This document shows positions 7,454 through 39,965 of a stretch of DNA of 45,119 nucleotides, piece by piece (positions within the stretch are counted from its first letter, which is position 1; each line of letters begins with the position of its first letter). The notes under the pieces are model-generated. The model was not told where the DNA came from. It made no database searches and worked only from the letters and a program-made list of their open reading frames with translations. The DNA is from Planctomycetota bacterium. GTDB lineage: Bacteria > Planctomycetota > Planctomycetia > Gemmatales > Gemmataceae. The stretch spans positions 1 through 45,119 of the forward strand of contig JAKBCS010000028.1 of the NCBI GenBank assembly GCA_021807595.1. The letters are read 5' to 3'. The position numbers were made by a program, and so were the translations under genes.

Positions 7454-7636
7454 CGCTGCCCTTTCGTCTTGGGTTTCACCAACGCCGTTGACGTTCGACG
7501 GCCGATTGTCAGGAATTAACCCCACAAACGCCCTATCGCCTCATTCCGACCATGAGATTAGCAGATCTGCGCCCGATTGCGTACAAAAAACCCCCGCGCG
7601 CCGTGGTGTTTGCTCGACTCCAGCGGTGGCAGCGAC

Positions 7637-7663
7637 GGAACCGAAAGCCGTTTGCCCGTCGTC
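7637..7663 (+). promoter_or_regulatory. ECF-type promoter candidate upstream of the sigma factor
   Basis: GGAACC at 7637-7642 followed after 17 nt by CGTC at 7660-7663, within a CGTCGTCGTC run. GGAAC plus a CGTC box at this distance is the usual form of many ECF sigma promoters, so the gene downstream could activate itself. The run of CGTC units makes a chance match more likely. A sigma-70-like -10 (TATAGT, 7756-7761) also lies nearby but has no convincing -35. Confidence 0.3.
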
Positions 7664-7779
7664 GTCTGCCAGCGCCATCTCACACGGTGGAAATCGCCGA
7701 GCGAGAATATGGAGGGGGACGAAAAATGGGGAAGCAGCGGAGCGTTTCGAGGCAGTATAGTAGGAGTGCGCGTCGTTCG

Positions 7780-9507
7780 ATGAGGAGGCTTATGGCGAAT
7801 CGTCCGTTGCATCCGCTGCTGCAATATCTCCGGCGTCTTCGAACCGTCGGAGCCGACGAAGGTGCGCGGAACGATGCGGAGTTGCTGCATGGCTTTGTAA
7901 ACCAGAACGACGAAGATGCGTTCGCGACTCTGGTGCAGCGCTACGGTGCGATGGTGTGGGGATTGTGCGTGCGCCGGCTGGGCGAGACACCGGAGGCCGA
8001 GGATGCGTTTCAGGCGACGTTTCTCGTGTTGGTGCGCAAGGCATCCTCCCTGCACGGCTCGCAGCTGCTCGGTCCTTGGCTGTACGAAGTCGCTTGTCGA
8101 ACGACTTTGAAGCTGAGCGGCCAGCGGGCGCGGCGGGCGGCGCGAGAGACACCGCTACCGGAACAACTCGCCGAAGAGGGGCCGGAAGCGATGGAGAGCG
8201 ATCTCCGGTCGATATTGGACGAGGAAATCCATCGCTTGCCAACGAAATATCGTTTGCCGGTGTTGCTGTGTTATCTGCAAGGGTTGAGCTGCGAAGAAGC
8301 GGCTCGGCGATTGGGCTGCCCCAAGGGCACGATCTTCTCCCGGCTGTCGCGGGCGCGCGATCTTCTCCGCCATCGTTTGCTGCGCCGCGGCGTGGGTGTG
8401 TCTGCCGGAGTGTTGGCAGTTGTATTCGCCGAGTCTGCGGCTTTGAGAGCGACCGTGCCTGCGACTCTGTTTGAACTATCCGTCCGTACAAGTCTTGTGT
8501 TCGCGGCGGGAACGGCGGGACAATCCCTGTCCGCTCCACTCGCTGCCTTGGTCGAAGGAGTGGTGCGAAGCATGTTCTTGAGTAAAGTAAAACTCGCGTT
8601 GATCGTGGTATTGGCTCTCGGCCTCGCGGGTACCGGCGCGGGGTTCCTCGTCCGTCCGGATGCTGCCGAGCAGCCTCAGAACAATTCGGCGACAAAAGCG
8701 AAGGCGGCACCTCCGAGGGTTGTCGATCGGACGAAGACGAAACCGAAGGCACCTCCCAAAAAAACCGGGCCAATCGCTCCCGACGCGGCCGTACAGAACC
8801 AGAGACTGCTCGAATGGCGCGAGATATTGCTTGAGACCATTCGTTTTGAGGGGATCGACGATCGGGAATCCAAACTGATCGAGGTCCTCGACCTGCTTTC
8901 CAAGCGCTACAGGGTCTCGTTTCTCATCAACGAGTTGGCTTTCTCCGAAGCGGGACTGCGTGAGATCGATCAATTTCGAGCAGCCTCGCGTCCCATCCCG
9001 GCCATGACAACGAGTTTGAGGACGCTCCTTCAGTTTATCTTACGACGTATTGCGGAAGAACAGGGAGTGGAGGCGGTGTTTCTCGTGCGCACGGACCATA
9101 TCGAGATCACGACAGCCGAATTTTGCCGGTTAGAATTGGGCTTGCGATCCAAGGAGCCACTCTACGCTTCCATGCTGCCGTTGGTGTGGGACGCTTACGA
9201 GGAAATGCCGTTGGCGCAGATCCTGGCCCGACTCGCCGAGACGAGCGGTTACAACGTGGTCGGCGATCCCAAAGCAAAGGAACGGCTGCAGACGAAGATT
9301 ACGGCGCAACTCAACAATGTCCCCATCGGCACGGCCGTGCGCTTGGTGGCGAACATGGCGGGTCTGACAATGGTGCGGCTCGACAACGTGTTCTACGTCA
9401 CCACGACCGAGAACGCCAAGAATCTGCGCAAGGAGCAGGCAAGAGTCGATGAAGAGAGGTCCGGCATGGCGGGAACACAACCGGCGACTGGGAAACACGC
9501 CAAGTAA
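7780..9507 (+). CDS. ECF sigma factor with transmembrane helix and STN-like C-terminal domains
   Basis: About 575 residues. Residues 45-105 are sigma region 2 (DEDAFATLVQRYG, AEDAFQATFLVLVRKA); residues 148-200 are region 4 (LPTKYRLPVLLCYLQGLS, then EEAARRLGCPKGTIFSRLSR). After a low-complexity stretch, residues 270-290 form one membrane helix (LALIVVLALGLAGTGAGFL), followed by a Lys/Pro-rich linker and two STN/secretin-N-like units, near 345-445 and 475-560, each ending in a beta-rich segment (HIEITT; FYVTTT). This layout, with the sensor fused to the sigma factor instead of a separate anti-sigma factor, is known from planctomycetes. Start: ATG 7780 has TAGGAG upstream; a second ATG at 7792 follows GAGGAGG but only 3 nt away. 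The frame is open to 7552 but the extra part looks non-coding. The tail probably controls release or activity of the sigma domain. Confidence 0.85.
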   Translation: MRRLMANRPLHPLLQYLRRLRTVGADEGARNDAELLHGFVNQNDEDAFATLVQRYGAMVWGLCVRRLGETPEAEDAFQATFLVLVRKASSLHGSQLLGPWLYEVACRTTLKLSGQRARRAARETPLPEQLAEEGPEAMESDLRSILDEEIHRLPTKYRLPVLLCYLQGLSCEEAARRLGCPKGTIFSRLSRARDLLRHRLLRRGVGVSAGVLAVVFAESAALRATVPATLFELSVRTSLVFAAGTAGQSLSAPLAALVEGVVRSMFLSKVKLALIVVLALGLAGTGAGFLVRPDAAEQPQNNSATKAKAAPPRVVDRTKTKPKAPPKKTGPIAPDAAVQNQRLLEWREILLETIRFEGIDDRESKLIEVLDLLSKRYRVSFLINELAFSEAGLREIDQFRAASRPIPAMTTSLRTLLQFILRRIAEEQGVEAVFLVRTDHIEITTAEFCRLELGLRSKEPLYASMLPLVWDAYEEMPLAQILARLAETSGYNVVGDPKAKERLQTKITAQLNNVPIGTAVRLVANMAGLTMVRLDNVFYVTTTENAKNLRKEQARVDEERSGMAGTQPATGKHAK

Positions 9508-20668: not shown

Positions 20669-21112
20669 TCAGTTTGGCGCGGACGGAACGACGCGCATTT
20701 GCACGGTGCGGCTCAGCTGGATTGGATTCGACAGTCCCGGATAGGAGCTGATGGTGGCGAACGAGTAGACTACGGTGACATCGACATAGGGATTGCCGCT
20801 GGCATCGACGCCGTTGGAGAAACTAACTGACGGTTGCGGAGACAGATTGGCGGCGTCGGCCAACGCGGCGTTGGTGATTGCTAGAGAGGGATTGACATTG
20901 TAATAGGGCGATTCTGATGCGGCCGTGGGATCGCTGGCATACAATGCCCCGTTACGCGCACAGTTGGTAACGATGGAATAGTGATAGTATAAACGTGCAA
21001 AATCGACGGTGAAAAGGAAAAGCATCGCCAGGAAGGGTAACAATAACACCAACTCGACGGCGGCAGATCCGCGTCGTGGACGCCGACTACTCCGGTGGAT
21101 AGGCTCGACCAT
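20669..21112 (-). CDS. TadE-like pseudopilin
   Basis: A 147-residue protein with a basic start (HRSSRRPRRG), then SAAVELVLLLPFLAMLFLF, the TadE helix with its Glu, and FARLYYHYSIVTNCARNGA, which resembles the segment after the helix in the neighbouring TadE-like protein (RYQQLAMLAREGARYASV). The two proteins are therefore probably paralogues that assemble together. AGGAGGGG lies 6-8 nt before the ATG at 21112, a strong ribosome site. First gene of the minus-strand pair. No Flp-type major pilin gene is next to it. Confidence 0.85.
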   Translation of the reverse strand: MVEPIHRSSRRPRRGSAAVELVLLLPFLAMLFLFTVDFARLYYHYSIVTNCARNGALYASDPTAASESPYYNVNPSLAITNAALADAANLSPQPSVSFSNGVDASGNPYVDVTVVYSFATISSYPGLSNPIQLSRTVQMRVVPSAPN

Positions 21113-21271
21113 TGCTTACCCCTCCTGCATGGGAGAGAATCGTCCGATAAGCGTATCGAAACATAGATCGAAATCCTCCCGAAAGCAAGCTCGACGTCTC
21201 GTATCCCCGTTAATGCCTGGGATAAAAATTGGTTGCATGGAATCAATTATCGCTTCGTCGGAAAGGGAGAT

Positions 21272-21300
21272 TTGACTCGCCTCACGCCGTGACGTAGAAG
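21272..21300 (+). promoter_or_regulatory. Sigma-70-like promoter candidate for the tadZABC operon
   Basis: TTGACT (21272-21277, 5 of 6), a 17-nt spacer, then TAGAAG (21295-21300, 4 of 6). It lies in the 317-bp divergent gap between the TadE-like pair and tadZ and would give a leader of about 120 nt. No other gene or strong hairpin is seen in that gap, and I found no convincing promoter facing the TadE-like genes. Confidence 0.4.
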
Positions 21301-21429
21301 ACTTTATCGCTCTCACCAAAACTCTCCACGCCGAACCGCTTGCCCACTTGACCCGCAACAACGCCCGGCCGCAAGCATCGTAGCGCGGAGAGATGAAGCG
21401 GAGGTCGATGTTCGAATCGAGGATCTCGC

Positions 21430-22611
21430 ATGTATGTCGCGGTGCTAATTCATAACACCTCACATCCTCTGGGGCTTCGGCTTCGCGAGATGTTGCAGGT
21501 GCGACTGAATTGTCGGGAATCGGAATTGATCTCCTTCGATCGTGCCGAGGAAACCCTGGCGCGCGGCAAGACGAACGTGTTGGTCGTCGTACTCTCGCCC
21601 GTGCCCGAATTGGCTTTGAATTACCTGCGGAAACTGCGTTCGCGGGTCTCCGGCCCCGTCCTCGCCGTCGGCTTAGCTTCCGATTCGAAGCTCATTCTCC
21701 GCGCTCTGCACGAGGGTGCCGATCATTATCTCGATGAGAGCGATCTGGAATCCCAGTTGGATTCCGTGATTCAGCGCTTGCAAATCAATCTGGAAAGAAC
21801 GCAGCAATCGAGCGGTCGGCTCATTGGTCTGCTCGGTGCCTCCGGCGGTAGCGGCACGAGTACGCTGGCGGCGAACCTCGCCGGCGTCCTGGCGCGCGAC
21901 CGTGGCCGCTGCGCTTTGATCGACCTCAAGCCCGGCGTCGGCGATCTCGCGGCCTTGCTCGATCTGAAGCCGACGCACAATCTCGCCGATCTGTGCCTCA
22001 ATTCCGCGCGCATGGATCGCGCCATGTTTGAGAGCGCATTGGTAGTCCATGCCAGCGGCGTTCATTTGCTGGCACCGCCGCAAATGTACGAGGATATTCG
22101 CCTGGTGACCGCGGCGGGGGTGAACAAGACGTTGCATCTGGCCCGGGATTTATTCCGCCATACGGTCGTCGATCTGGAAGACTGCTATCACGAGGAGCAA
22201 GCGACCGTTTTGCGCCAAGCGGATTCCATTTTACTCGTCTTTCGCCTCGATTATACCTCGCTGCGTAGCACGAAGCGCATCTTGGATAACCTGGCGCAGG
22301 CCGGCATCGACGGCGAGCGCGTACGCTTGGCGATCAATCGGTTTGGTCAGGCGAAGGAATTGCCCCTCACGCAGGCGGAGGAAGCGCTGGGGCGCAAGAT
22401 TTCCTTCATCGTGCCGGACGACCCGAAAACGATCAACGCCGCCAACAACGCCGGCGAGCCTGCGGTTTTCCGTTCTCCCTCGTCCAAAGTGGCCTTAAGC
22501 ATCGTGCAGATGGCGAACGGATTGAGCGCCCGAGACGAAACGGAATCGACCCCGACGGCGCGCCATCCCGTCAAATCCGCGAACGGTTGGCTGGCTGTTT
22601 TCCACGGCTAA
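21430..22611 (+). CDS. tadZ: TadZ/CpaE-like pilus assembly ParA-family protein
   Basis: A 393-residue protein. Residues 1-120 resemble a receiver-like domain (VLVVVLSPVPELALNYL, VGLASDSKLILRALHEGADHYL), as in CpaE/TadZ. Residues 130-380 are a MinD/ParA-type domain. The P-loop reads GASGGSGTSTLAANLAGVLA (136-155): both Lys of the usual deviant Walker A are replaced, which is known for TadZ/CpaE proteins. LIDLKPGVGDLAALLDL and VVDLEDCYHEE are the switch regions. TadZ places the Tad machine at a particular cell site. GAGGA lies about 7 nt before the ATG. It is first of four same-strand tad genes, 54 bp ahead of tadA. ATP hydrolysis is probably weak or absent. Confidence 0.88.
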   Translation: MYVAVLIHNTSHPLGLRLREMLQVRLNCRESELISFDRAEETLARGKTNVLVVVLSPVPELALNYLRKLRSRVSGPVLAVGLASDSKLILRALHEGADHYLDESDLESQLDSVIQRLQINLERTQQSSGRLIGLLGASGGSGTSTLAANLAGVLARDRGRCALIDLKPGVGDLAALLDLKPTHNLADLCLNSARMDRAMFESALVVHASGVHLLAPPQMYEDIRLVTAAGVNKTLHLARDLFRHTVVDLEDCYHEEQATVLRQADSILLVFRLDYTSLRSTKRILDNLAQAGIDGERVRLAINRFGQAKELPLTQAEEALGRKISFIVPDDPKTINAANNAGEPAVFRSPSSKVALSIVQMANGLSARDETESTPTARHPVKSANGWLAVFHG

Positions 22612-22665
22612 GACAAATCCCCGGCTGCCAATAAAAAGCCGGTTCACCGAGGTAGGGAACTCTTT

Positions 22666-24048
22666 ATGCCGCGCATTCCTTCCGATGAAGTCACTGCCCT
22701 CGACGGCGATTCGTGGGCCGACTTGGAGTCCATTCGCCGTCCTTCGGCTTCCCTCTCTCAGGGATCGGAAGAACGTCGCCGTCTCAAGGCGCAGCTGCAC
22801 CAACAGCTTATCGCCAACATGGATTTGACGGCGATCGGTACCGTCAGCCGCGACGATTTGCGCGCCGAGGTGCGCCGCCGCGCCGAGGAGTTGAGCCAGC
22901 GCAGCTCCAACTTGCTCAACCGCGCCGAACGCGAACGCTTGGTCTCCGAGGTTCTCGACGAGACCTTTGGGCTCGGCCCGCTTGAACCGCTGATGGCCGA
23001 TCCAACCATCAGCGACATTCTCATCAACGGCCACAGCGTCGTTTACGTCGAGCGGAACGGCCGTTTGGAGCGCGCCGACGTTGCCTTCACCGACGCGCGC
23101 CATTTGCTGCACATCATTCAACGCATCGTCGGCCAAGTGGGCCGGCGCGTGGATGAAACCAGTCCGATGGTCGATGGCCGGCTCGCGGACGGCAGCCGTA
23201 TCAACGCCATCATTCCACCGCTGGCGCTCGACGGCGCACTGGTGTCGATCCGCCGATTCGGCGTGCGTCCGCTGCTGGCCAACGATTTAGTACAAAAGGG
23301 AGCCATGACAGAGGAAATGGCCGCCTTTCTGTCGGCTTGCGTACAAGCGCGGTTGAATCTGCTGATTTCCGGCGGCACCGGCAGCGGCAAGACGACGCTG
23401 TTGAACGCTCTTTCGGCTTTTATCCCCTCCGACGAGCGCGTCATCACCATTGAGGATGCGGCGGAATTGCGTTTGCAACAACCGCACATCGGTCGTCTGG
23501 AGACGCGCCCCAAAAACGTCGAAGGCGCGGGTGAAGTGACGACGCGCGATCTGGTTCGCAACGCCCTCCGTATGAGGCCGGATCGCATCGTGATCGGCGA
23601 ATGTCGCGGCCCCGAAGCGCTCGACATGCTCCAAGCGATGAATACCGGACACGAAGGATCGCTCACCACCGTCCACGCCAACGATACCCGCGATGCCCTG
23701 AGCCGTCTGGAGATGATGGTTGGCATGGCCGGTTTCGACATGCCCATGTGGGTGATTCGCAAGCAAATCGCTTCGGCGATTCACGTCATCGTGCAAACGA
23801 CCCGGCTGTCGGGTGGAGCGCGGAAAGTGGTGAAGATTTCTGAAGTCACCGGCGTCGAAGGCGATAATCTGGCGATGCACGATTTGTTCGCCTACAAGCA
23901 AACCGGCGTCGATGAGGACCGCCGCGCCCAAGGCTATTTCCATGCCACGGGCATCCGACCGCATTACCTCGAACGTCTGACGGCTTGCGGCGTAGAAGTG
24001 CCCTTACACCTGTTCGAGCGACGGATTCTGACCGGCGGTCGCGCCTAG
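22666..24048 (+). CDS. tadA: TadA/CpaF secretion ATPase
   Basis: A 460-residue member of the type II/IV secretion ATPase family that powers Flp pilus assembly. The N-terminal part has the CpaF features GLGPLEPLMADPTISDILIN and VDGRLADGSRINAIIPP; Walker A is GGTGSGKTTLLNAL (236-249); the Asp box is ITIEDAAELRL; Walker B is RPDRIVIGECRGPEALDMLQ; the His box is HEGSLTTVHAN. All catalytic motifs are intact and the length is normal. Cytoplasmic, probably hexameric, acting on the TadB/TadC platform encoded next. The ribosome site (GAGGTAGGG) is only moderate. Confidence 0.95.
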   Translation: MPRIPSDEVTALDGDSWADLESIRRPSASLSQGSEERRRLKAQLHQQLIANMDLTAIGTVSRDDLRAEVRRRAEELSQRSSNLLNRAERERLVSEVLDETFGLGPLEPLMADPTISDILINGHSVVYVERNGRLERADVAFTDARHLLHIIQRIVGQVGRRVDETSPMVDGRLADGSRINAIIPPLALDGALVSIRRFGVRPLLANDLVQKGAMTEEMAAFLSACVQARLNLLISGGTGSGKTTLLNALSAFIPSDERVITIEDAAELRLQQPHIGRLETRPKNVEGAGEVTTRDLVRNALRMRPDRIVIGECRGPEALDMLQAMNTGHEGSLTTVHANDTRDALSRLEMMVGMAGFDMPMWVIRKQIASAIHVIVQTTRLSGGARKVVKISEVTGVEGDNLAMHDLFAYKQTGVDEDRRAQGYFHATGIRPHYLERLTACGVEVPLHLFERRILTGGRA

Positions 24049-24103
24049 TCCGCTTAGTCCCGATGGCCAAGCGATCCCTTCGTTCGTCCCACGAGGTTGC
24101 TCC

Positions 24104-25099
24104 GTGAGTCTCCCCTTGTCCCTCACATTGATGTTTCTTGCCGCCAGTTTGGGCGTCGCGGCCGGCTACTCCATTTGGAGAGATCTGCGTCATCGCGACG
24201 CCTCGCGCGCGCGCCGTCGCATGGAGAGCGAATTCCAAAAGCCCGGATCGAAGCCGGCGATGCGAACCAGTTTGTTCAAGACCGATGGGCAACTCGATTT
24301 CGACGCGTTGCGGGCCGACCGAAGCCCTGCTCTCGATGCCCCCTTACCCCTGCCGCGACGAGCCGACTGGCGAGCTCACCTACAAATGATGGTCGAGCAA
24401 TCCGGACTAAAGCTGACTTTAAATCAGCTGGCCTATCTCTGTACGGGAACGACTTTCATCGGGGCGTCTCTGGGCTATTTCGTCGGCGGTCCCATTCCGG
24501 GGGGCATCGGTGCGATAGGTCTGGGGTTGACGCCGCTCTTGTATGTCCGCCACAAACAGAAATCGCGCCTGGATCGCTTTGTAATGCAACTGCCCGCGGC
24601 GTTCGATTTGATGGCTCGCGTGCTGCGTTCGGGCTATTCGGTGCCGCAGGCGTTTCAGGCAGTGGCCGACTCGCTCGAACCGCCCATCGCCGTCGAGTTC
24701 GCCCAATGCCAAGAACAACAGAATCTCGGCATGTTGCCGGAATTGACCTATCGTGACTTGGCGCAGCGCAATGGCATTCTGGAAGTAAAGATCTTCGTCA
24801 TGGCGATGATGATTCAACGGCAAAGCGGAGGCAATTTATCGGATGTGTTAGAACGCCTCGCCGCCTTGGTCCGCGAGCGCGTGCGGCTGCGCAATCACGT
24901 CCGCACGCTGACCGCCGAGGGACGTATGCAAGCCTTGGTTCTCCTGGTGTTGCCTCCCGTCATGTTCTTGGTGATGCGTTTCGTTAATCGCCCCTATGCC
25001 GATATTCTGTTGGAGCATACTGGGCTTCTCGCCGCCATGTTCGTGGCGATGGCCGCCGGAGCGCTGTGGATTCGCAAAATCATTCAGTTCGATTTTTAG
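24104..25099 (+). CDS. tadB: TadB-like inner-membrane platform protein
   Basis: A 331-residue type II secretion F-domain protein. An N-terminal helix (LPLSLTLMFLAASLGVAAGY) and two later hydrophobic pairs (near 110-150 and 270-325) flank the cytoplasmic T2SSF domain, seen as LPAAFDLMARVLRSGYSVPQ and QRQSGGNLSDVLERLAALVR. TadB and TadC form the inner-membrane base on which TadA works. Start is GTG at 24104 with ACGAGG 7-8 nt upstream; the gap from tadA is 55 bp. Length is normal. The assignment to TadB rather than TadC rests on gene order and on the longer N-terminal part. Confidence 0.9.
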   Translation: MSLPLSLTLMFLAASLGVAAGYSIWRDLRHRDASRARRRMESEFQKPGSKPAMRTSLFKTDGQLDFDALRADRSPALDAPLPLPRRADWRAHLQMMVEQSGLKLTLNQLAYLCTGTTFIGASLGYFVGGPIPGGIGAIGLGLTPLLYVRHKQKSRLDRFVMQLPAAFDLMARVLRSGYSVPQAFQAVADSLEPPIAVEFAQCQEQQNLGMLPELTYRDLAQRNGILEVKIFVMAMMIQRQSGGNLSDVLERLAALVRERVRLRNHVRTLTAEGRMQALVLLVLPPVMFLVMRFVNRPYADILLEHTGLLAAMFVAMAAGALWIRKIIQFDF

Positions 25100-25152
25100 A
25101 GTCGGTTAGTCTTCTCCTTCGATTTTCTGGACGCCGAGGGAGAAGGGTTGGG

Positions 25153-26091
25153 ATGAGGGTGACCGATATGATCGACAAGGGTTGGATCAGTATGCTCGTG
25201 TTTCTACTGACGAGCGGACTGATATTGGGCTTCTTCATGTGGCGCAACCGCGATCTCTTATTGACGAAGGCGCGCATGCGCGGTCTGGGCGCTGCCCCGC
25301 GCGACCGTCCGGCGAGTCATGGACTGGGGAAACGGCTGCTATCCAGACTGCCCGACATGGGTACTCCGTTGCTGCCGACCACCGAGGAGCAACGAACGCG
25401 GTTGCGACAACGCCTCATTGAAGCCGGCATCTACGATACGAACGCCTTGGCCTTGATCCTCAGCCTCAAAATGCTTTTGATGGCCGGGCCTTTGATTCTG
25501 TCGATCGTCTTGTCCGCAACCGGGACGCTGTCGCCGATTCGTGCGATGATAGCCGGCGCGCTCGGATTGGGGCTGGGTATGATCGCGCCGGGGATGTGGC
25601 TCGACTATCGAAAGAAGGCTCGACAAAGCAGTCTTCGCCGCGCACTGCCGGACGCCCTGGACATGCTCGTGTTGTGTCTGGAGGGCGGCGTCAGCCTGAA
25701 CGCGGCCATGCAGCGCGTCACGGCCGAATTGCACTCGGCTCATCCGCTGTTGGGCATAGAGATGGATCTCGTGCAGCGCGAAATGATGTTGGGTGTGTCC
25801 GCCGGAGAGGGATTGCAAAAACTCGCCGCGCGCAGCGATCTCGACGATCTGCGCCACCTCGCCTCCGTCGTGTTGCAAAGCGAACGCTATGGGGCCAGTG
25901 TCGTCAAGGCGCTGCGCATTCACGCCGACACCTTGCGCCAACAACGCCAGCAGCGCGCCGAAGAGATGGCGCAAAAGGCGTCCGTCAAGATCCTATTTCC
26001 GACGCTGCTGTGTATCTTCCCAGCCGTTTTTATCGTTATTATCGGCCCTGCAGCCTTTCAACTCGCGGCCATCTTTTCGCGCATGAAATGA
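25153..26091 (+). CDS. tadC: TadC-like inner-membrane platform protein
   Basis: A 312-residue T2SSF-domain protein with hydrophobic segments near 15-32, 110-160 and at the C-terminus (LLCIFPAVFIVIIGPAAFQ). The F-domain signature reads LPDALDMLVLCLEGGVSLN and LASVVLQSERYGASVVKAL. The frame is open back to 25066, but that part overlaps tadB; the ATG at 25153 has GAAGGG 6 nt upstream and is preferred. The stop at 26089-26091 overlaps the next start as ATGA, so the kinase gene is translationally coupled to tadC. Role: partner of TadB in the membrane platform of the Tad pilus. Confidence 0.9.
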   Translation: MRVTDMIDKGWISMLVFLLTSGLILGFFMWRNRDLLLTKARMRGLGAAPRDRPASHGLGKRLLSRLPDMGTPLLPTTEEQRTRLRQRLIEAGIYDTNALALILSLKMLLMAGPLILSIVLSATGTLSPIRAMIAGALGLGLGMIAPGMWLDYRKKARQSSLRRALPDALDMLVLCLEGGVSLNAAMQRVTAELHSAHPLLGIEMDLVQREMMLGVSAGEGLQKLAARSDLDDLRHLASVVLQSERYGASVVKALRIHADTLRQQRQQRAEEMAQKASVKILFPTLLCIFPAVFIVIIGPAAFQLAAIFSRMK

Positions 26092-28217
26092 CTCCACCTC
26101 GATCGGGGAGGGTTGCGTTCTATACTCGTATTGAAGCGGCGAGTGGAGGTGCGTTGACGAAGCGCGTACTTGCCCCAGTCTCCGAATGCGAGGAACTCGT
26201 CGTGGATCACGTCGACTTCATCGAGCGTTTGCGGCAAAGCCATCTGCTTTCCCAGTCTCAATGCGAGCAAGTGGTGCAGCGCTTCGCCGGTGCGACTCCT
26301 TCGGCAAGCTCGGCCGAGGCGCTTGTGGAAGAAGGCATCTTGACGCCCTTTCAGTTCCGCCACCTGATCTCCGACGACGCCCAGCCTCTGAACCTGGGAC
26401 AATATCGACTGCTCGACGAAGTGGGGCGAGGCGGCATGGGTCGCGTCTTCAAAGCGCTGCACACCATCATGGACCGCGTTGTCGCCGTCAAAGTCATTTC
26501 GTCGGACTTGGTACGCGATCCCGTCGCCGTGGCATGGTTTCGTCGAGAAGTTCGCGCCTGTACCCAATTGGCACATCCGAATATCGTCATGGCCTACGAC
26601 GCCAACGAGGCGGAGGGGCTGCACTTTCTCGTCATGGAGTACGTCCACGGCATAACTCTCGACGCTTTAGTGAAACAATTTGGACCGTTGCCGATCCCTT
26701 ATACCTGTGCTTTGATGTGTCAGGTCGCGCGAGGTTTGCAGCACGCCCACATAAAAGGCTTGGTGCATCGAGACATCAAGCCCGGCAATCTGCTGATTCC
26801 CTTTTCCGAAAGCGAGCGGCTGCCCGACGTCTTGGTAAAGATTCTCGACTTCGGCTTGGCGCGCCTGCAAGGCAAAACCAAGGGCGACACCATCGCGCTG
26901 CGAGGCGAAACCGGCGTCTTGGGCACACCGGATTACATCGCTCCGGAACAATCTCGCGACATCCACGCCGCCGACATTCGCTCCGATCTCTACAGTTTGG
27001 GATGCGCGTTCTACTTCGCCTTGACTGGCCGTGTGCCGTACCCCGGCGAAAACGCGCTGGAGAAACTCCTCAAACATCTGACGGAGGTGGCGGAGCCGGT
27101 GGAACGGGCGCGCCCCGATGTGCCGCCGAGGATCGCGGCTCTGGTGCGGCGTCTGATGGCCAAAGATCCCACCGTTCGACCGCAAACGCCCGCCGAAGTG
27201 GTCGAAGAGCTTGACGCCTGGAAGGCAGAGCCTTCGGCTCTCCCGTCCGGAGATTCAATCCCCAAGCGTCCGCCGTGGCTGTCGCCGCCTACATACCATG
27301 CCTCCGACCGGCCCGTGACTTCGCCTTCGCCTGAGCATACTTCGCATTTCGACAAGATCGAAGTATTCGCACCTTCGCGGCGTGAAAACGAGCCGACGGA
27401 CTTCGCGTGCCTCGCCGCCGAGTCTCCCAAAGATTGGGACGGCGAAGCCGTCAAGAATAACAAACGCCGCGAGACGCGCGATACGCTCTCGATCTCTCAG
27501 CCCGAAGACACCGAAGCTGCCACCGCCGAGGCGCTATCGGGACGGTTCGCTTGCGAGTCCAGAGGCCGCGACGATTCCGACGCCACACAATTAGAAATGC
27601 CGTCGACGCCCACCGACGAAATCGTATCCTGCGATCCGCCGCCACCGATCGATCCAGACGTCCGCCGCCTGTGGAGAGAATGGACTGCATTCGTGCAAAC
27701 GATTCTCTCAGGGCGCGAACCGTCGGGTACCGATACCCAAGCGTATCGATCCTTTCACACCTCGTTACTTCAAGCCTGTCGTCGAGCAACCGAAACCTGT
27801 TCCCATCCCGAACGGCGCGCCTTCTACGAAGAGTGCTTGTCGATCGCGCAACCGTGGTTCAAATTGCAATCGTTCGCCCTCGCCGATCCGATTCTCCTCG
27901 ACTCTTTATTGCGGAGATGTCAACAGATTGTACTCGAACTGAACCAAGGGAGTTCGCCCTGGACGCTCCGCGAAGTTCTCGCCTGGACCTCGTTTGTGCT
28001 GAATCTTCTCGCAGCGGGGGTGTGGTATTGGTTCGCGGGTAGGCCACGTCTGCCGGCACTACTGCGTCTCTTCGAATGGAATTTCTCGCCTTTGTCGCTG
28101 CGCTCTCTGTGGGCATACCTGCAAATCCATCCCTCGCTCTGGATGGGTCTGGTCTTTCCGCTCGTCTTTTTGTTCACTCTCGCCTTCGTGCGGCGCTCCA
28201 CGCGCATGGAGCCGTAG
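26088..28217 (+). CDS. Membrane-anchored Ser/Thr protein kinase coupled to the tad operon
   Basis: A 709-residue protein. Residues 40-100 contain the planctomycete pre-kinase segment (ALVEEGILTPFQFRHL); the kinase domain (about 104-385) is complete: GRGGMG (113-118), VAVK with K135, HRDIKPGN with D229, DFG 254-256, and APE 285-287. A Pro/Ser-rich linker and a helical region follow, then two membrane helices near 632-650 and 684-701 at the C-terminus. The start is the ATG at 26088, overlapping the tadC stop as ATGA; a TTG at 26154 behind GGAGG is an alternative that would shorten the N-terminus by 22 residues. The frame is open much further upstream inside tadC, but that is shadow. The coupling suggests it phosphorylates part of the Tad machine or its regulator; this is inference. 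Confidence 0.88.
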   Translation: MTPPRSGRVAFYTRIEAASGGALTKRVLAPVSECEELVVDHVDFIERLRQSHLLSQSQCEQVVQRFAGATPSASSAEALVEEGILTPFQFRHLISDDAQPLNLGQYRLLDEVGRGGMGRVFKALHTIMDRVVAVKVISSDLVRDPVAVAWFRREVRACTQLAHPNIVMAYDANEAEGLHFLVMEYVHGITLDALVKQFGPLPIPYTCALMCQVARGLQHAHIKGLVHRDIKPGNLLIPFSESERLPDVLVKILDFGLARLQGKTKGDTIALRGETGVLGTPDYIAPEQSRDIHAADIRSDLYSLGCAFYFALTGRVPYPGENALEKLLKHLTEVAEPVERARPDVPPRIAALVRRLMAKDPTVRPQTPAEVVEELDAWKAEPSALPSGDSIPKRPPWLSPPTYHASDRPVTSPSPEHTSHFDKIEVFAPSRRENEPTDFACLAAESPKDWDGEAVKNNKRRETRDTLSISQPEDTEAATAEALSGRFACESRGRDDSDATQLEMPSTPTDEIVSCDPPPPIDPDVRRLWREWTAFVQTILSGREPSGTDTQAYRSFHTSLLQACRRATETCSHPERRAFYEECLSIAQPWFKLQSFALADPILLDSLLRRCQQIVLELNQGSSPWTLREVLAWTSFVLNLLAAGVWYWFAGRPRLPALLRLFEWNFSPLSLRSLWAYLQIHPSLWMGLVFPLVFLFTLAFVRRSTRMEP

Positions 28218-36476: not shown

Positions 36477-39400
36477 ATGTTAGACTTGCAAGCGGAACAG
36501 CACGATCGAGGGCAATCTTGCGCCGATTTGTACGAGGCGGTGTTGCAATTGAAACGCCGCCACGATTTACACCCCTGCGCGGTGCAGCCGCGCGACGGCT
36601 TGTCGCTGCGCCGCGACAGCGAGCGCGAAACCGTGCAAGATCTCGTCAAACGCTTCCGCGATCTGCCCGTGGAACAACAGCGGCGATTGCCGGCTCTGCT
36701 CAATAGCTTGGCCCAACTCGAAGTCGTCGTCGGCGATCTCGATGCCAGCCAGCGCGATTTTCAAGAAGCAGCCCGGCTAGTCGTCGATCCGCTGTCCCAA
36801 GCCGAAGCGCAGCACAATGTCTATCGCGCCGCTCTGGAACGCCGCGATTGGAACGCAGCTCTGGCCGCTCTGCGCCGCGCCGTTGCGCTGGACAGCGCCC
36901 ACTTCGAACCGTTCCCGTTTTCGCGCTACGAACCCGAAAGCATTCTTGGCGCGGGCGGCTTCGGTGTCTCGTTTCTGTGCCGTCAGCGCGACAACCAGCG
37001 GGCGGTCGTCGTCAAGGCGCTGCGAACCGACAGCCTGGAGCGCGAAACCGCGGTACTGTTCCTTGAAATGGCATCTTTACAGGATCTCGATAATCCGATT
37101 TTTGTGTGCCTCCACGAGTGCGCTTACGCCGGCGGCGAGACATCCCGGCCTTATTTGGTGGTGGATTACGTTCCGGGGCAGACGTTGACCGAGACCGTTG
37201 CGAAGAACGGGCCGCTATCTCCAGAAGACTGGTTTACCATCGCTTGGCCGTTAGCGCGAGCGCTGCAAGCGCTCCATGGTCGCGGTATTTTACATCGCAG
37301 CCTGCGCCCGTCGGCGCTGATGATCGATCCCCCGGAAAAGATACGGAGCGCGGATACCGATTCGCCCCAAGTAGCTGCGCCGAAGCCAGGCTGGCGCGTC
37401 GCGTTGCTCGATGCGGGTCTGTCGTTGAAGCGCGCCTTGATCCACGCCTGCGCCAGTAATCCGGAGACGGCAACGCGGACGGCGTTGGGGCGTGCCGTGG
37501 CGCGCACCATCGCGTTCGCTCCGGTCGAAGTCGTGGGCAGACCGAAAGGGCAAGTGTGGGTAGGCCCGCACTCCGACATCTACAGTTTTGGTAAACTCTG
37601 TTCCTTCGCGTTGACCGGCCGAACCAACCCCGATGGAGGCGATCTCCTTTTGGTGCCGGAAGGTTGGCGACGGCTGATCGCCCACTGCACGGCATGGAAC
37701 ATGGGAGATCGTCCGGCCCATTTTGGCGCAGTTCTCGAAAGCCTAGCGCTGCTGTCGGGAGCCGACGATCGGATCGGCCGCATCGAACGCGATTTGTACG
37801 AACGTGACGTTGCCGAGCGGAGTGCCGCGCTCCAGAGCGATCCCCGCGATGTCTCGCTGCTCGTCCGACGCGGTAACGCCCACGCGCGACAGGGCGAATT
37901 CGAGAAAGCGATTGCCGACTACAGCCAGGTTCTCGAACTTCAGCCCGGCGATGCCGCACTGTATCGCCGCCGTGCTATGGCCCACACGCGCAACCGCTCT
38001 TTGGACGCCGCCATTGCCGACTATACGGAGTCGTTACGTCTGGAACCGCGCAACGCCGAATCGCTTGCTAATCGCGCTCTGGCATATGCGCAAAAGGACG
38101 ACCACGAACGCGCGCTCGCGGATTTCCAGGAGGCGCTGCGCTTGCAGCCGCGCGATCCGATGCTGTTATTCAATCGCGGGAATGCCTATCTCGGCAAAGG
38201 CGACTATGCCCTGGCACTCGCCGATTACTCCGAGGTTCTACGTCTCGACCCGCGCAACTTCTGGGCGCAAGCCAATCGCGGCAAACTCCATAGTTTACTC
38301 GGCGAACATGCCCGCGCCATCGCCGACTATACGCGCATCCTTCAACTCGATCCCAACAACGTCCGCGCCTTGTGCGATCGTGCCGCCGCCCACCAGGCTC
38401 TCCATCAATTCTCCCAAGCTCTGGCCGACTACAGCGCCGCGCTGAAACTGGAACCGAGCGCCGAGTTATACAACGAGCGCGGGCTAGCGCATGTGGCCGC
38501 CAACGATCTAGATGCTGCCGCCGCCGATTTTGGCGAAGCGATCGCCTTGAGGCCGGAGGTCGGTGGTTCGTATCTATTACGAGGCAACGCCCATGCCGAC
38601 AAGGGAGACTTCGAGAAAGCGCTTCCCGACTTCGACGAGGCCATTCGTCTCGATCCCGAATACGCTCCCGGATGGTTCCAGCGCGGCAATCTCCACGCAC
38701 GACGGGGCCAGAGGGAGGCCGCACTCGCCGATTATTCCCGCGCATTGGAACTCGATCCTGAGTTCGCCCCCGCCTATTTCCAGCGCGGCAATCTTCACGC
38801 CGAGAGCGGCGAGTGGGATGCTGCCCTCGCGAACTACGACCGCGCGCTCCAACGATCTCCAAAGGATGCCGCTTCACTCACCAACCGAGGCAACGTCTAC
38901 CATCAGATGGGCGATCACGAGCGCGCTCTGGCCGACTACACTGCGGCCTTGCAACTCGATCCCGCGGACGTGTTGACGTTGTGCAATCGCGCCAACACTT
39001 ACGCGCGACTGAGCGATTACGAACGCGCACTCGCCGACTACACGGAAGCGATCCGATACGACCCCGCCAACGCCCGTGCCCTCAACAGTCGCGGCAATGT
39101 CCACGCCGAACGGGGCGACACCACCGCCGCGCTGGCCGATTACACACAAGCCATCAAGGTCGATCCTAAGTTCTCGCGAGCGTACCACAATCGAGGCAAT
39201 CTGTTCGTCGGGCGCGGCCAGATTGCCGAGGCCCTCGCCGACTTTGACGAAGCGATTCGTCTGGAGCCAGATTACGCGCCGGCCTACTACAATCGAGGTA
39301 ACGCCCATGCCGAGAGCGGCCAGTGGGATGCTGCAATCGCCGACTTCAGCGAAGCGCTGCGACTTCATCCCCAGCACCCCGGCTCGCTCAACAATCGAGG

Positions 39401-39965
39401 CAACGCCTATCGGCGCAAAGGCGATCTCGACGCGGCGCTAGCCGATTTCACCGCCGCTCATGCCGCCGCACCCCACACCGTGCTACCACTCTACAATCGT
39501 GCTGGCCTACTCGTTGAGCGCGGCGACCACGCCGCCGCGCTCAACGATTACACCGAAGCACTACGGCTGGAACCCAACGATGTCGTTCTCTACCACAATC
39601 GCGGACGCATCCACGCGGCGATGGGGCAGTACCAGCAGTCTATCGCGGACAATCTGGAGGCCCACCGTCTCCGTCCCGACGACGCGCGCACCTGCAACAA
39701 TCTGGCATGGCTGTGGGCGACGGCCACCCCCCCGGAGCTGCGCGATCCGCTTCGTGCCATCGAATTCGCGCGCCGTGCATGTGAGTTGACTCAGGGACAG
39801 GACGCCGGATGTCTCGATACGTTGGCCGCCGCTTTCGCCGCCGCCGGCCAATTCGCCGAGGCCGTCGAACAACAACGCCTCGCTCTCGAACGCGCGGACG
39901 ACAGCGAGAAAGAGGAGTATCGTTCGCGCTTAGAGGCGTATGAGAAGGGACACCCTTCGTCGTAA
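36477..39965 (+). CDS. Pseudokinase fused to about 18 TPR repeats
   Basis: About 1162 residues. After a short helical part, a kinase fold runs from about 150 to 430: glycine loop GAGGFG (158-163), VVVKALR with K180, and FLEMASLQDLDNP for helix C. The catalytic loop reads HRSLRPSALMI: the Asp of HRD is Ser275, and the Lys and Asn of HRDxKPxN are Arg and Ala. DFG reads DAG (312-314), keeping the metal Asp. Phosphotransfer is therefore unlikely. From about 455 follow 18 units of 34 residues with the TPR pattern (LVRRGNAHARQGEFEKAIAD), then two weaker units. No membrane helix. The frame is open to 36360, but the extra codons are unlike the rest; the ATG at 36477 has GAAGGAG about 14 nt upstream, so the start is uncertain. 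Probably an allosteric scaffold. Confidence 0.82.
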   Translation: MLDLQAEQHDRGQSCADLYEAVLQLKRRHDLHPCAVQPRDGLSLRRDSERETVQDLVKRFRDLPVEQQRRLPALLNSLAQLEVVVGDLDASQRDFQEAARLVVDPLSQAEAQHNVYRAALERRDWNAALAALRRAVALDSAHFEPFPFSRYEPESILGAGGFGVSFLCRQRDNQRAVVVKALRTDSLERETAVLFLEMASLQDLDNPIFVCLHECAYAGGETSRPYLVVDYVPGQTLTETVAKNGPLSPEDWFTIAWPLARALQALHGRGILHRSLRPSALMIDPPEKIRSADTDSPQVAAPKPGWRVALLDAGLSLKRALIHACASNPETATRTALGRAVARTIAFAPVEVVGRPKGQVWVGPHSDIYSFGKLCSFALTGRTNPDGGDLLLVPEGWRRLIAHCTAWNMGDRPAHFGAVLESLALLSGADDRIGRIERDLYERDVAERSAALQSDPRDVSLLVRRGNAHARQGEFEKAIADYSQVLELQPGDAALYRRRAMAHTRNRSLDAAIADYTESLRLEPRNAESLANRALAYAQKDDHERALADFQEALRLQPRDPMLLFNRGNAYLGKGDYALALADYSEVLRLDPRNFWAQANRGKLHSLLGEHARAIADYTRILQLDPNNVRALCDRAAAHQALHQFSQALADYSAALKLEPSAELYNERGLAHVAANDLDAAAADFGEAIALRPEVGGSYLLRGNAHADKGDFEKALPDFDEAIRLDPEYAPGWFQRGNLHARRGQREAALADYSRALELDPEFAPAYFQRGNLHAESGEWDAALANYDRALQRSPKDAASLTNRGNVYHQMGDHERALADYTAALQLDPADVLTLCNRANTYARLSDYERALADYTEAIRYDPANARALNSRGNVHAERGDTTAALADYTQAIKVDPKFSRAYHNRGNLFVGRGQIAEALADFDEAIRLEPDYAPAYYNRGNAHAESGQWDAAIADFSEALRLHPQHPGSLNNRGNAYRRKGDLDAALADFTAAHAAAPHTVLPLYNRAGLLVERGDHAAALNDYTEALRLEPNDVVLYHNRGRIHAAMGQYQQSIADNLEAHRLRPDDARTCNNLAWLWATATPPELRDPLRAIEFARRACELTQGQDAGCLDTLAAAFAAAGQFAEAVEQQRLALERADDSEKEEYRSRLEAYEKGHPSS
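37839..39674 (+). repeat. Tandem 102-bp TPR-coding units
   Basis: About 18 consecutive 102-bp units, each coding one 34-residue TPR with the pattern N-R-G-N-x-H/Y at helix A and A-L-A-D-Y/F at helix B, ending in L-x-P. Unit 7 is one residue short. Units at 38700-38800 and 39250-39350 are the most alike. The repeats are coding and not a CRISPR-like array. Confidence 0.8.

Follow-up and report, generated by a model that had tools for sequence, protein, structure and literature searches.

The window, by which we mean the whole analysed stretch of 45,119 nucleotides (contig JAKBCS010000028.1, assembly GCA_021807595.1) from a planctomycete of the family Gemmataceae, carries on its forward strand, at 36477-39965, a gene for a protein of 1162 amino acids (aa), delimited by its open reading frame, Pfam matches and orthologues. 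In this protein a kinase-like domain that lacks the catalytic aspartate is joined to a very long array of tetratricopeptide repeats (TPRs). Sixteen Gemmataceae genomes encode a member of the same family, all without that aspartate, and constraint on these proteins lies away from the ATP cleft. The reading frame stays open upstream of the assigned Met/Val start, but all orthologues except the closest align only from there.

Residues 1-147 (36477-36917) form a helical, TPR-like domain, recognised from AlphaFold helices, an alignment of the 8 orthologues and the ratio of nonsynonymous to synonymous substitution rates (dN/dS). Its helices, at residues 47-138 with a predicted local distance difference test score (pLDDT) of about 70-88, resemble further TPRs, and the domain is part of the conserved unit. 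Pfam Pkinase (PF00069) matches residues 151-376 at 71.1 bits, above its cut-off of 31.7, and identifies a kinase-like fold; together with the alignments, this match places the pseudokinase domain at residues 148-424 (36918-37748). C-terminal to it, Pfam TPR_1 scores 454 bits across 18 stretches. The full-length AlphaFold model has 20 helix pairs between residues 459 and 1139 (37851-39893), the confidence for the repeats being mostly above 85, and then a last, capping helix at residues 1142-1156 (39900-39944). The original prediction, made for this gene from the sequence alone, of about 18 repeats equals the Pfam count and is slightly low if the modelled helix pairs are counted. AlphaFold was run twice with 4 sequences, for the full protein and for the N-terminal 438 residues alone, and in both models pLDDT is below 50 across nearly all of residues 140-437, so that the kinase part of the models is unusable.

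The 25 Pfam families listed, of 27 matched, are TPR, kinase and further helical-repeat families, plus a single weak match to tudor. In NCBIfam no family describes the protein, and the matches over or near curated cut-offs there are TPR models. On the Kyte-Doolittle scale no 19-residue stretch averages more than 1.2, and a membrane helix is therefore not expected. A plasmid search gave no match for the protein.

Reading of the individual residues bears out the original description of a degraded catalytic site with a preserved glycine loop and K180. The glycine loop GAGGFG (residues 158-163; 36948-36965) is kept, as are, by alignment, the beta3 lysine Lys180 (37014-37016) and the alpha-C glutamate Glu197 (37065-37067). 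The catalytic loop, canonically HRDxKPxN, reads HRSLRPSA (residues 273-280; 37293-37316), with Ser275 in place of Asp, Arg277 in place of Lys and Ala280 in place of Asn, and DAG (D312-A313-G314; 37410-37418) replaces DFG, both changes being evident from the residues and from alignment. To judge by these replacements, the kinase domain of the window protein probably has no phosphotransfer activity.

Loss of the catalytic residues throughout a clade

A search of 95 Gemmataceae genomes with the N-terminal 438 residues as query found close orthologues in 8 genomes of 5 genera, namely 4 in the window's own genus and one each in the genomes that we number G075, G004, G050 and G043. Over these 438 residues the eight share 47-94% pairwise identity. 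Residue 275 is Ser in six of them, Asn in G075 and Ala in G004, and both the Asn at 280 and the DFG Phe are missing from all eight. The original prediction had named orthologues with a normal HRD as the sign of a recent loss; the catalytic Asp is absent from 8/8. The closest orthologue, G039 (94% identity), has identical HRS and DAG, and the loss is common to 16 genomes, which rules out both a recent event and a sequencing error.

A sister set adds 8 proteins from 3 genera (g30, g35 and g25), in which the loop begins with HRA, HKA, HRS or HRG and the DFG position reads DSG, GSD, GAD or similar. The catalytic Asp is present in none of the 16 clade members as against 39 of 42 relatives, the catalytic-loop Asn in none as against 40 of 42, and the DFG Phe in 0/16. 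If a pseudokinase is defined by loss of the beta3 Lys, the HRD Asp or the DFG Asp, conserved in orthologues, then the HRD Asp, gone from every member, places the window protein in this class.

In a maximum-likelihood tree from which the glycine-loop, beta3, alpha-C, catalytic-loop, DFG and APE columns had been removed, the 8 orthologues form a clade (support 95/85) that joins the sister set at 100/100. Because the 16 members without Asp and Asn group as one clade on a tree free of the active site, a single old loss, retained since, is indicated. The tree comprised the window protein, 59 loci and 3 ordinary kinases from the window's genome; the 59 are 30 + 30 + 3 less 4 duplicates (L031, L032, L033 and L036), further weak matches being left outside, and two of them, L092 and L093, are ordinary kinases that are not counted among the 42 relatives. 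Excluded from the tree was G075:C114:13247-13840, a short 241-aa frame that matches the N-terminal domain and N-lobe only, at 43% identity, and is possibly a broken or truncated copy. Elsewhere on the tree the Asp was lost three more times (L070, L045 and L080), giving four changes altogether, and partial decay is seen just outside the clade, with HRS and SFG in L070, HRDLGPTS and NFG in L071, HRDLKPGS and NFG in L076, and HGM in L045. By this topology, kinases of this type have decayed more than once, and the large dead clade stems from one loss.

A profile built from the 16 members, which they match by construction, scores them at 530-682 bits; across 102 genomes of the order, no other protein exceeds 408 bits. 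Exactly one copy is found in each carrying genome (16/16), and the profile search turned up neither a second copy nor a new member. Within the 8 carrier genera, 16 of the 18 genomes have the family, the two non-carriers being 56% and 59% complete. Sampling of the class (397 genomes) and the phylum (392 genomes), with 4 candidates scored per genome, found no protein in the family score range outside Gemmataceae.

Measured against G039 (dS 0.23-0.31; comparisons with other orthologues are near saturation), dN/dS is 0.013 in the N-terminal domain, the slowest-evolving part of the protein, 0.13 in the kinase part and 0.165 in the TPRs. The value of 0.13 in a dead kinase, together with the N-terminal identity retained across 8 genomes, means that conservation is far beyond chance. 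By these sequence comparisons, the dead kinase is kept under purifying selection, in a single copy per genome and, as far as searched, in Gemmataceae only.

The architecture is fixed in the members that can be checked. TPRs were detected in 14 of the 16 (the window protein, seven orthologues and six of the sister set); L091 gave none with a window-derived profile, the Pfam scan not having been applied to it, and in G078 the contig ends past the kinase part. Of 13 complete frames, 12 encode proteins of 1128-1230 aa. We define the family by an HR[S/N/A/G] or HKA loop, the signature P-x-G-x-x-W-x-G-P and a C-terminal TPR array, all of which the window protein has.

The intact-motif relatives in Gemmataceae have the same N-terminal domain and kinase layout (the closest, L039, is 47% identical, with HRD...N and DFG intact) and differ in what follows. 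Among 10 of them scanned with Pfam, a C-terminal TPR array was found in none; they carry WD40, FGE-sulfatase, NPCBM, HEAT, GYF or uracil-DNA-glycosylase domains, or no further domain. Active kinases fused to TPRs are indeed common in planctomycetes (PMC11032199), as the original prediction had stated; in most close intact relatives of this protein, however, other C-terminal domains are found. The half-decayed L070 and L071 show 5 repeats and then WD40. L045, which in full is L105 (8734-12603, forward strand), lies outside the main clade, with an HGMIRPDN loop and 22 TPRs, and is a second pairing of Asp loss with a TPR array. The array and kinase death coincide closely, but not exclusively.

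The window's genome has 70 kinase-like frames, including a few fragments or non-kinases. Three frames besides the window protein carry 1-4 repeats, and among about 65 kinase-like open reading frames the window protein alone has a long array (18 repeats, the next best having 4). Further Asp-less domains in this genome are L199 (HGL, contig C45), L201 (HRN, C254) and the second domain of L212 (HLG, C210). An odd combination is seen in L065 (3172-5148, reverse strand), an intact-motif kinase of the same type fused to a uracil-DNA-glycosylase domain.

Conserved positions and a putative docking function

The two halves of the clade are on average 28% identical (range 20-37%), and despite this divergence all 16 members have the same residue at 21 positions. 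Constraint lies off the ATP cleft: K180, E197, S275, A280 and D312 are all outside the invariant set, and H323, P356, W361, W397 and W407 are inside it. Lys is retained at position 180 in 11 members, Glu at 197 in 10 and Asp at 312 in 10. At position 180, G075 has R, G050 has E and genus g25 has H or Q; at position 312, G004 has E and genera g35 and g25 have G.

Alignment with the relatives separates the positions that mark the family from those that do not. W257 (37245-37247) occurs in 15/16 members and 0/42 relatives, and H323, in the activation segment (37443-37445), in 16/16 members and 4/41 relatives. In the signature RPKGxxWxGPxxD (residues 355-367; 37539-37577), P356, G358, W361, G363, P364 and D367 are invariant; P356-W361 lies between APE and helix F, and both W361 and P356 are absent from all 42 relatives, among which G358 is common. 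Two invariant tryptophans sit near the C-lobe end. W407 (37695-37697) is found in 1 of the 10 nearest relatives and in none of 31 others; W397 (37665-37667) is also present in 8 of the 10 nearest relatives and is not specific. Tyr19, a residue of the N-terminal domain present in 4/32 relatives, and T380, present in 5/5 ordinary kinases, were dropped as family marks. By analogy with kinase structures, most family-specific positions are presumably located near the activation segment and in the lower C-lobe, a part of the fold to which the substrates and regulators of many kinases bind, and the conserved C-lobe residues may form one surface.

We consider it fairly probable (roughly 0.65) that the protein is a non-catalytic adaptor. 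Its kinase fold would no longer transfer phosphate and would serve as a protein-docking module, with the altered face of the activation segment and C-lobe (W361, P356, H323, W407 and W257) binding one partner. The superhelix of about 20 TPRs and the short TPR-like N-terminal domain would hold further partners, and the whole protein would thus act as an adaptor or scaffold. The scaffold-like pseudokinase of the original prediction is supported to this extent, all 16 clade members being without the catalytic Asp and Asn. A more specific proposal, to which we give somewhat less than even odds, is that in this family, known so far from Gemmataceae only, constraint left the ATP cleft and came to act on a new Trp/Pro/His face in the C-lobe, and that the docking module and its TPRs assemble a signalling or envelope-related complex, as a single-copy hub in each cell.

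Several observations weigh against an adaptor. Neither a binding partner nor a conserved operon turned up. The conserved residues could instead belong to the buried core of a domain whose AlphaFold pLDDT is <50. A relative with intact motifs, L068, has 11 repeats, so that an array of TPRs is not peculiar to dead kinases. The orthologue in G037 (L098 16138-18312, forward strand) is only 725 aa long, with 5 repeats found and its C-terminal end intact, which may reflect either a real deletion or a collapsed repeat assembly. Finally, K180, E197 and D312 are all retained in the window's genus (4 genomes) and in genus g30 (3 genomes), where ATP binding or an odd activity is possible; within the orthologue clade, K, E and D occur together only in the window's own genus.

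These retained residues bear most directly on the nucleotide-sensing scaffold of the original prediction, in which ATP would still be bound and would switch the shape of the pseudokinase and thus the scaffold, as proposed for plant BSK3. The glycine loop, K180, E197 and D312 are present in the window protein and the three other members from its genus, and K, E and D also in g30, so that ATP binding by the window protein is possible; in BSK3, moreover, a K86R change rescues only partly, and the authors considered a possible need for ATP binding (PMC6336344). Nevertheless, K180 and the DFG Asp drift among members and the catalytic-loop Asn is gone in 16/16. The ATP site is not kept family-wide, and nucleotide sensing could therefore be only lineage-specific, never the common function; overall, we think this reading unlikely. 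Still less probable, in our view, is that the kinase part is a folded spacer or leftover, in which the family-specific Trp, Pro and His repair stability and only the N-terminal and TPR parts are functional. The kinase part does evolve faster than the N-terminal domain (dN/dS 0.13 versus 0.013), and in three members of the sister set (L087, L090 and L082) it falls below Pfam recognition, but residues outside the ATP site are strictly invariant at 20-37% identity and the domain has been lost in none of the 16 members. Other ATP-dependent chemistry, like the AMPylation of SelO or the glutamylation of SidJ, has bacterial precedents (PMC12599244) and would be consistent with K180 and D312 in the window's genus, but is very improbable, since the residues needed for it differ between orthologues and the conserved positions lie elsewhere.

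Neighbouring genes and known systems

Across 16 genomic contexts, no operon conserved with the window's pseudokinase was found. Synteny is only partial, extending to the TadZABC genes in G075, to PSD1/DUF1501 genes in G043 and to everything in G039. The original prediction had suggested that the protein gathers real kinases of the cell, for which the contexts give no evidence: only in G039 and G075 does the pseudokinase have nearby a counterpart of the closest intact kinase gene of the window (25596-28214), and its constant neighbour, an ancestral one, encodes a metallo-hydrolase and not a kinase. With synteny merely partial, a neighbouring kinase was rejected as a general, conserved partner. 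In the window this kinase gene follows a Tad-type pilus cluster (20669-26088), whose genes we take to be a TadE-like gene on the reverse strand, a CbiA/MinD-type ATPase in the TadZ place, a T2SSE ATPase and two T2SSF proteins; the same Tad genes adjoin the pseudokinase in G075 (L099 14173-18926).

The metallo-hydrolase (Pfam Lactamase_B_3, with an apparent signal peptide), which we take to be UlaG-like, abuts the pseudokinase gene divergently in 9 of 15 checkable genomes, a count that excludes G079, where the contig is too short. The nine loci are L101 4660-5520, L102 8088-9149, L107 4167-5036, L145 8611-9669, L146 12315-12743, L147 10552-11346, L148 9712-10608, L149 15752-16621 and L150 1393-2247, and they come from five genera, with each half of the clade represented. 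Because the pairing is found in 9/15 genomes, it is ancestral and was lost in the window's genus; in the window's genome the hydrolase sits elsewhere (G000:C247). The hydrolase is present in 74 of 95 Gemmataceae genomes, mostly without the pseudokinase, and adjacency therefore does not imply a functional tie; given also its distant position in the window's genome, we do not build on it as a functional partner. In G051-G053, ordinary intact kinases adjoin the same metallo-hydrolase gene (L178, L179 and L165). A defence role was likewise rejected, as what PADLOC matched to the protein are generic models of kinases (mad6 the best, at 91.8 bits for the whole protein) and there is no conserved defence context. 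Elsewhere in the window, a frame of 651 aa on the forward strand (7552-9504) contains sigma-70 regions 2 and 4; Pfam matches nothing in its long additional part.

Two known groups with kinase and TPR parts invite comparison: the plant BSKs, which carry few TPRs, and PknG, an active kinase with a rubredoxin-like part. BSK3 and BSK8 resemble the window protein in having a kinase-like domain followed by TPRs, a kept beta3 Lys and a proposed scaffold role (PMC6336344). The window protein exceeds the cut-off of Pfam TPR_BSK1_C (45.6 against 42.2 bits), a match that is probably generic to TPRs. BSKs, however, are confined to plants. They are N-myristoylated at Gly2 (PMC6336344), whereas residue 2 of the window protein is Leu, and a close sequence kinship is not expected. 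PknG of Mycobacterium and Corynebacterium likewise has a kinase domain and then TPRs (PMC11032199); the window protein differs from it in lacking the catalytic Asp, and no rubredoxin is among the 25 of 27 Pfam families listed.

Bacterial pseudokinases are mostly unstudied (PMC12599244). Seven pseudokinase-rich bacterial families (ActPs1, ActPs2, ActPs3, GLW, CP1, DYD and DLHK) are similar to ours in that kinase folds are conserved without catalytic residues and family-specific constraints substitute for them (PMC12599244). Their motif patterns are unlike that of the window protein, and none is described with TPRs or from planctomycetes in that source, its main text having zero occurrences of TPR, tetratricopeptide, planctomyc- and Gemmata. 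ActPs2 combines a beta3 Arg, HRN, a DFG deletion and a long activation-loop insertion (PMC12599244), where the window protein has K180, HRS and DAG; G075 shares with it the Asn for the HRD Asp and is the sole member with both Arg and Asn (1/16), yet it keeps DSG. DLHK keeps the HRD Asp and catalytic-loop Asn with Lys and DFG degraded, the opposite of the window protein, and GLW has those letters in the HRD position, where the window protein has HRS (PMC12599244). CP1 is linked to the COG3899 ATPase domain (PMC12599244); no ATPase is among the 25 of 27 Pfam families listed for the window protein, COG3899 itself not having been searched. Non-catalytic recruiting roles have been shown for the bacterial pseudokinases MviN/FhaA, a scaffold of M. 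tuberculosis, and EssB/YukC, which are membrane proteins with fully degraded motifs and are not described with a TPR array (PMC12599244), whereas the window protein looks soluble and keeps its glycine loop.

A study of planctomycete kinomes described TPR fusions with up to 15 repeats in Uabimicrobium; it counted a kinase as functional only if the K, D and D sites were present, and its tree and its survey of domains were confined to such kinases (PMC11032199). Our literature search, mostly without subscription journals, found no publication on the Gemmataceae pseudokinase-TPR family, which is an addition to a known class, the bacterial pseudokinase families. A kinome definition based on KDD (PMC11032199) would omit this family. 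From intact relatives through half-decayed neighbours to the dead clade, these proteins make up a series for testing the change from kinase to scaffold, and the family points to mutagenesis targets other than the usual catalytic residues. If the proposed docking and complex assembly are true, the Gemmataceae family would be a bacterial counterpart of the pseudokinase-TPR scaffolds of plants.

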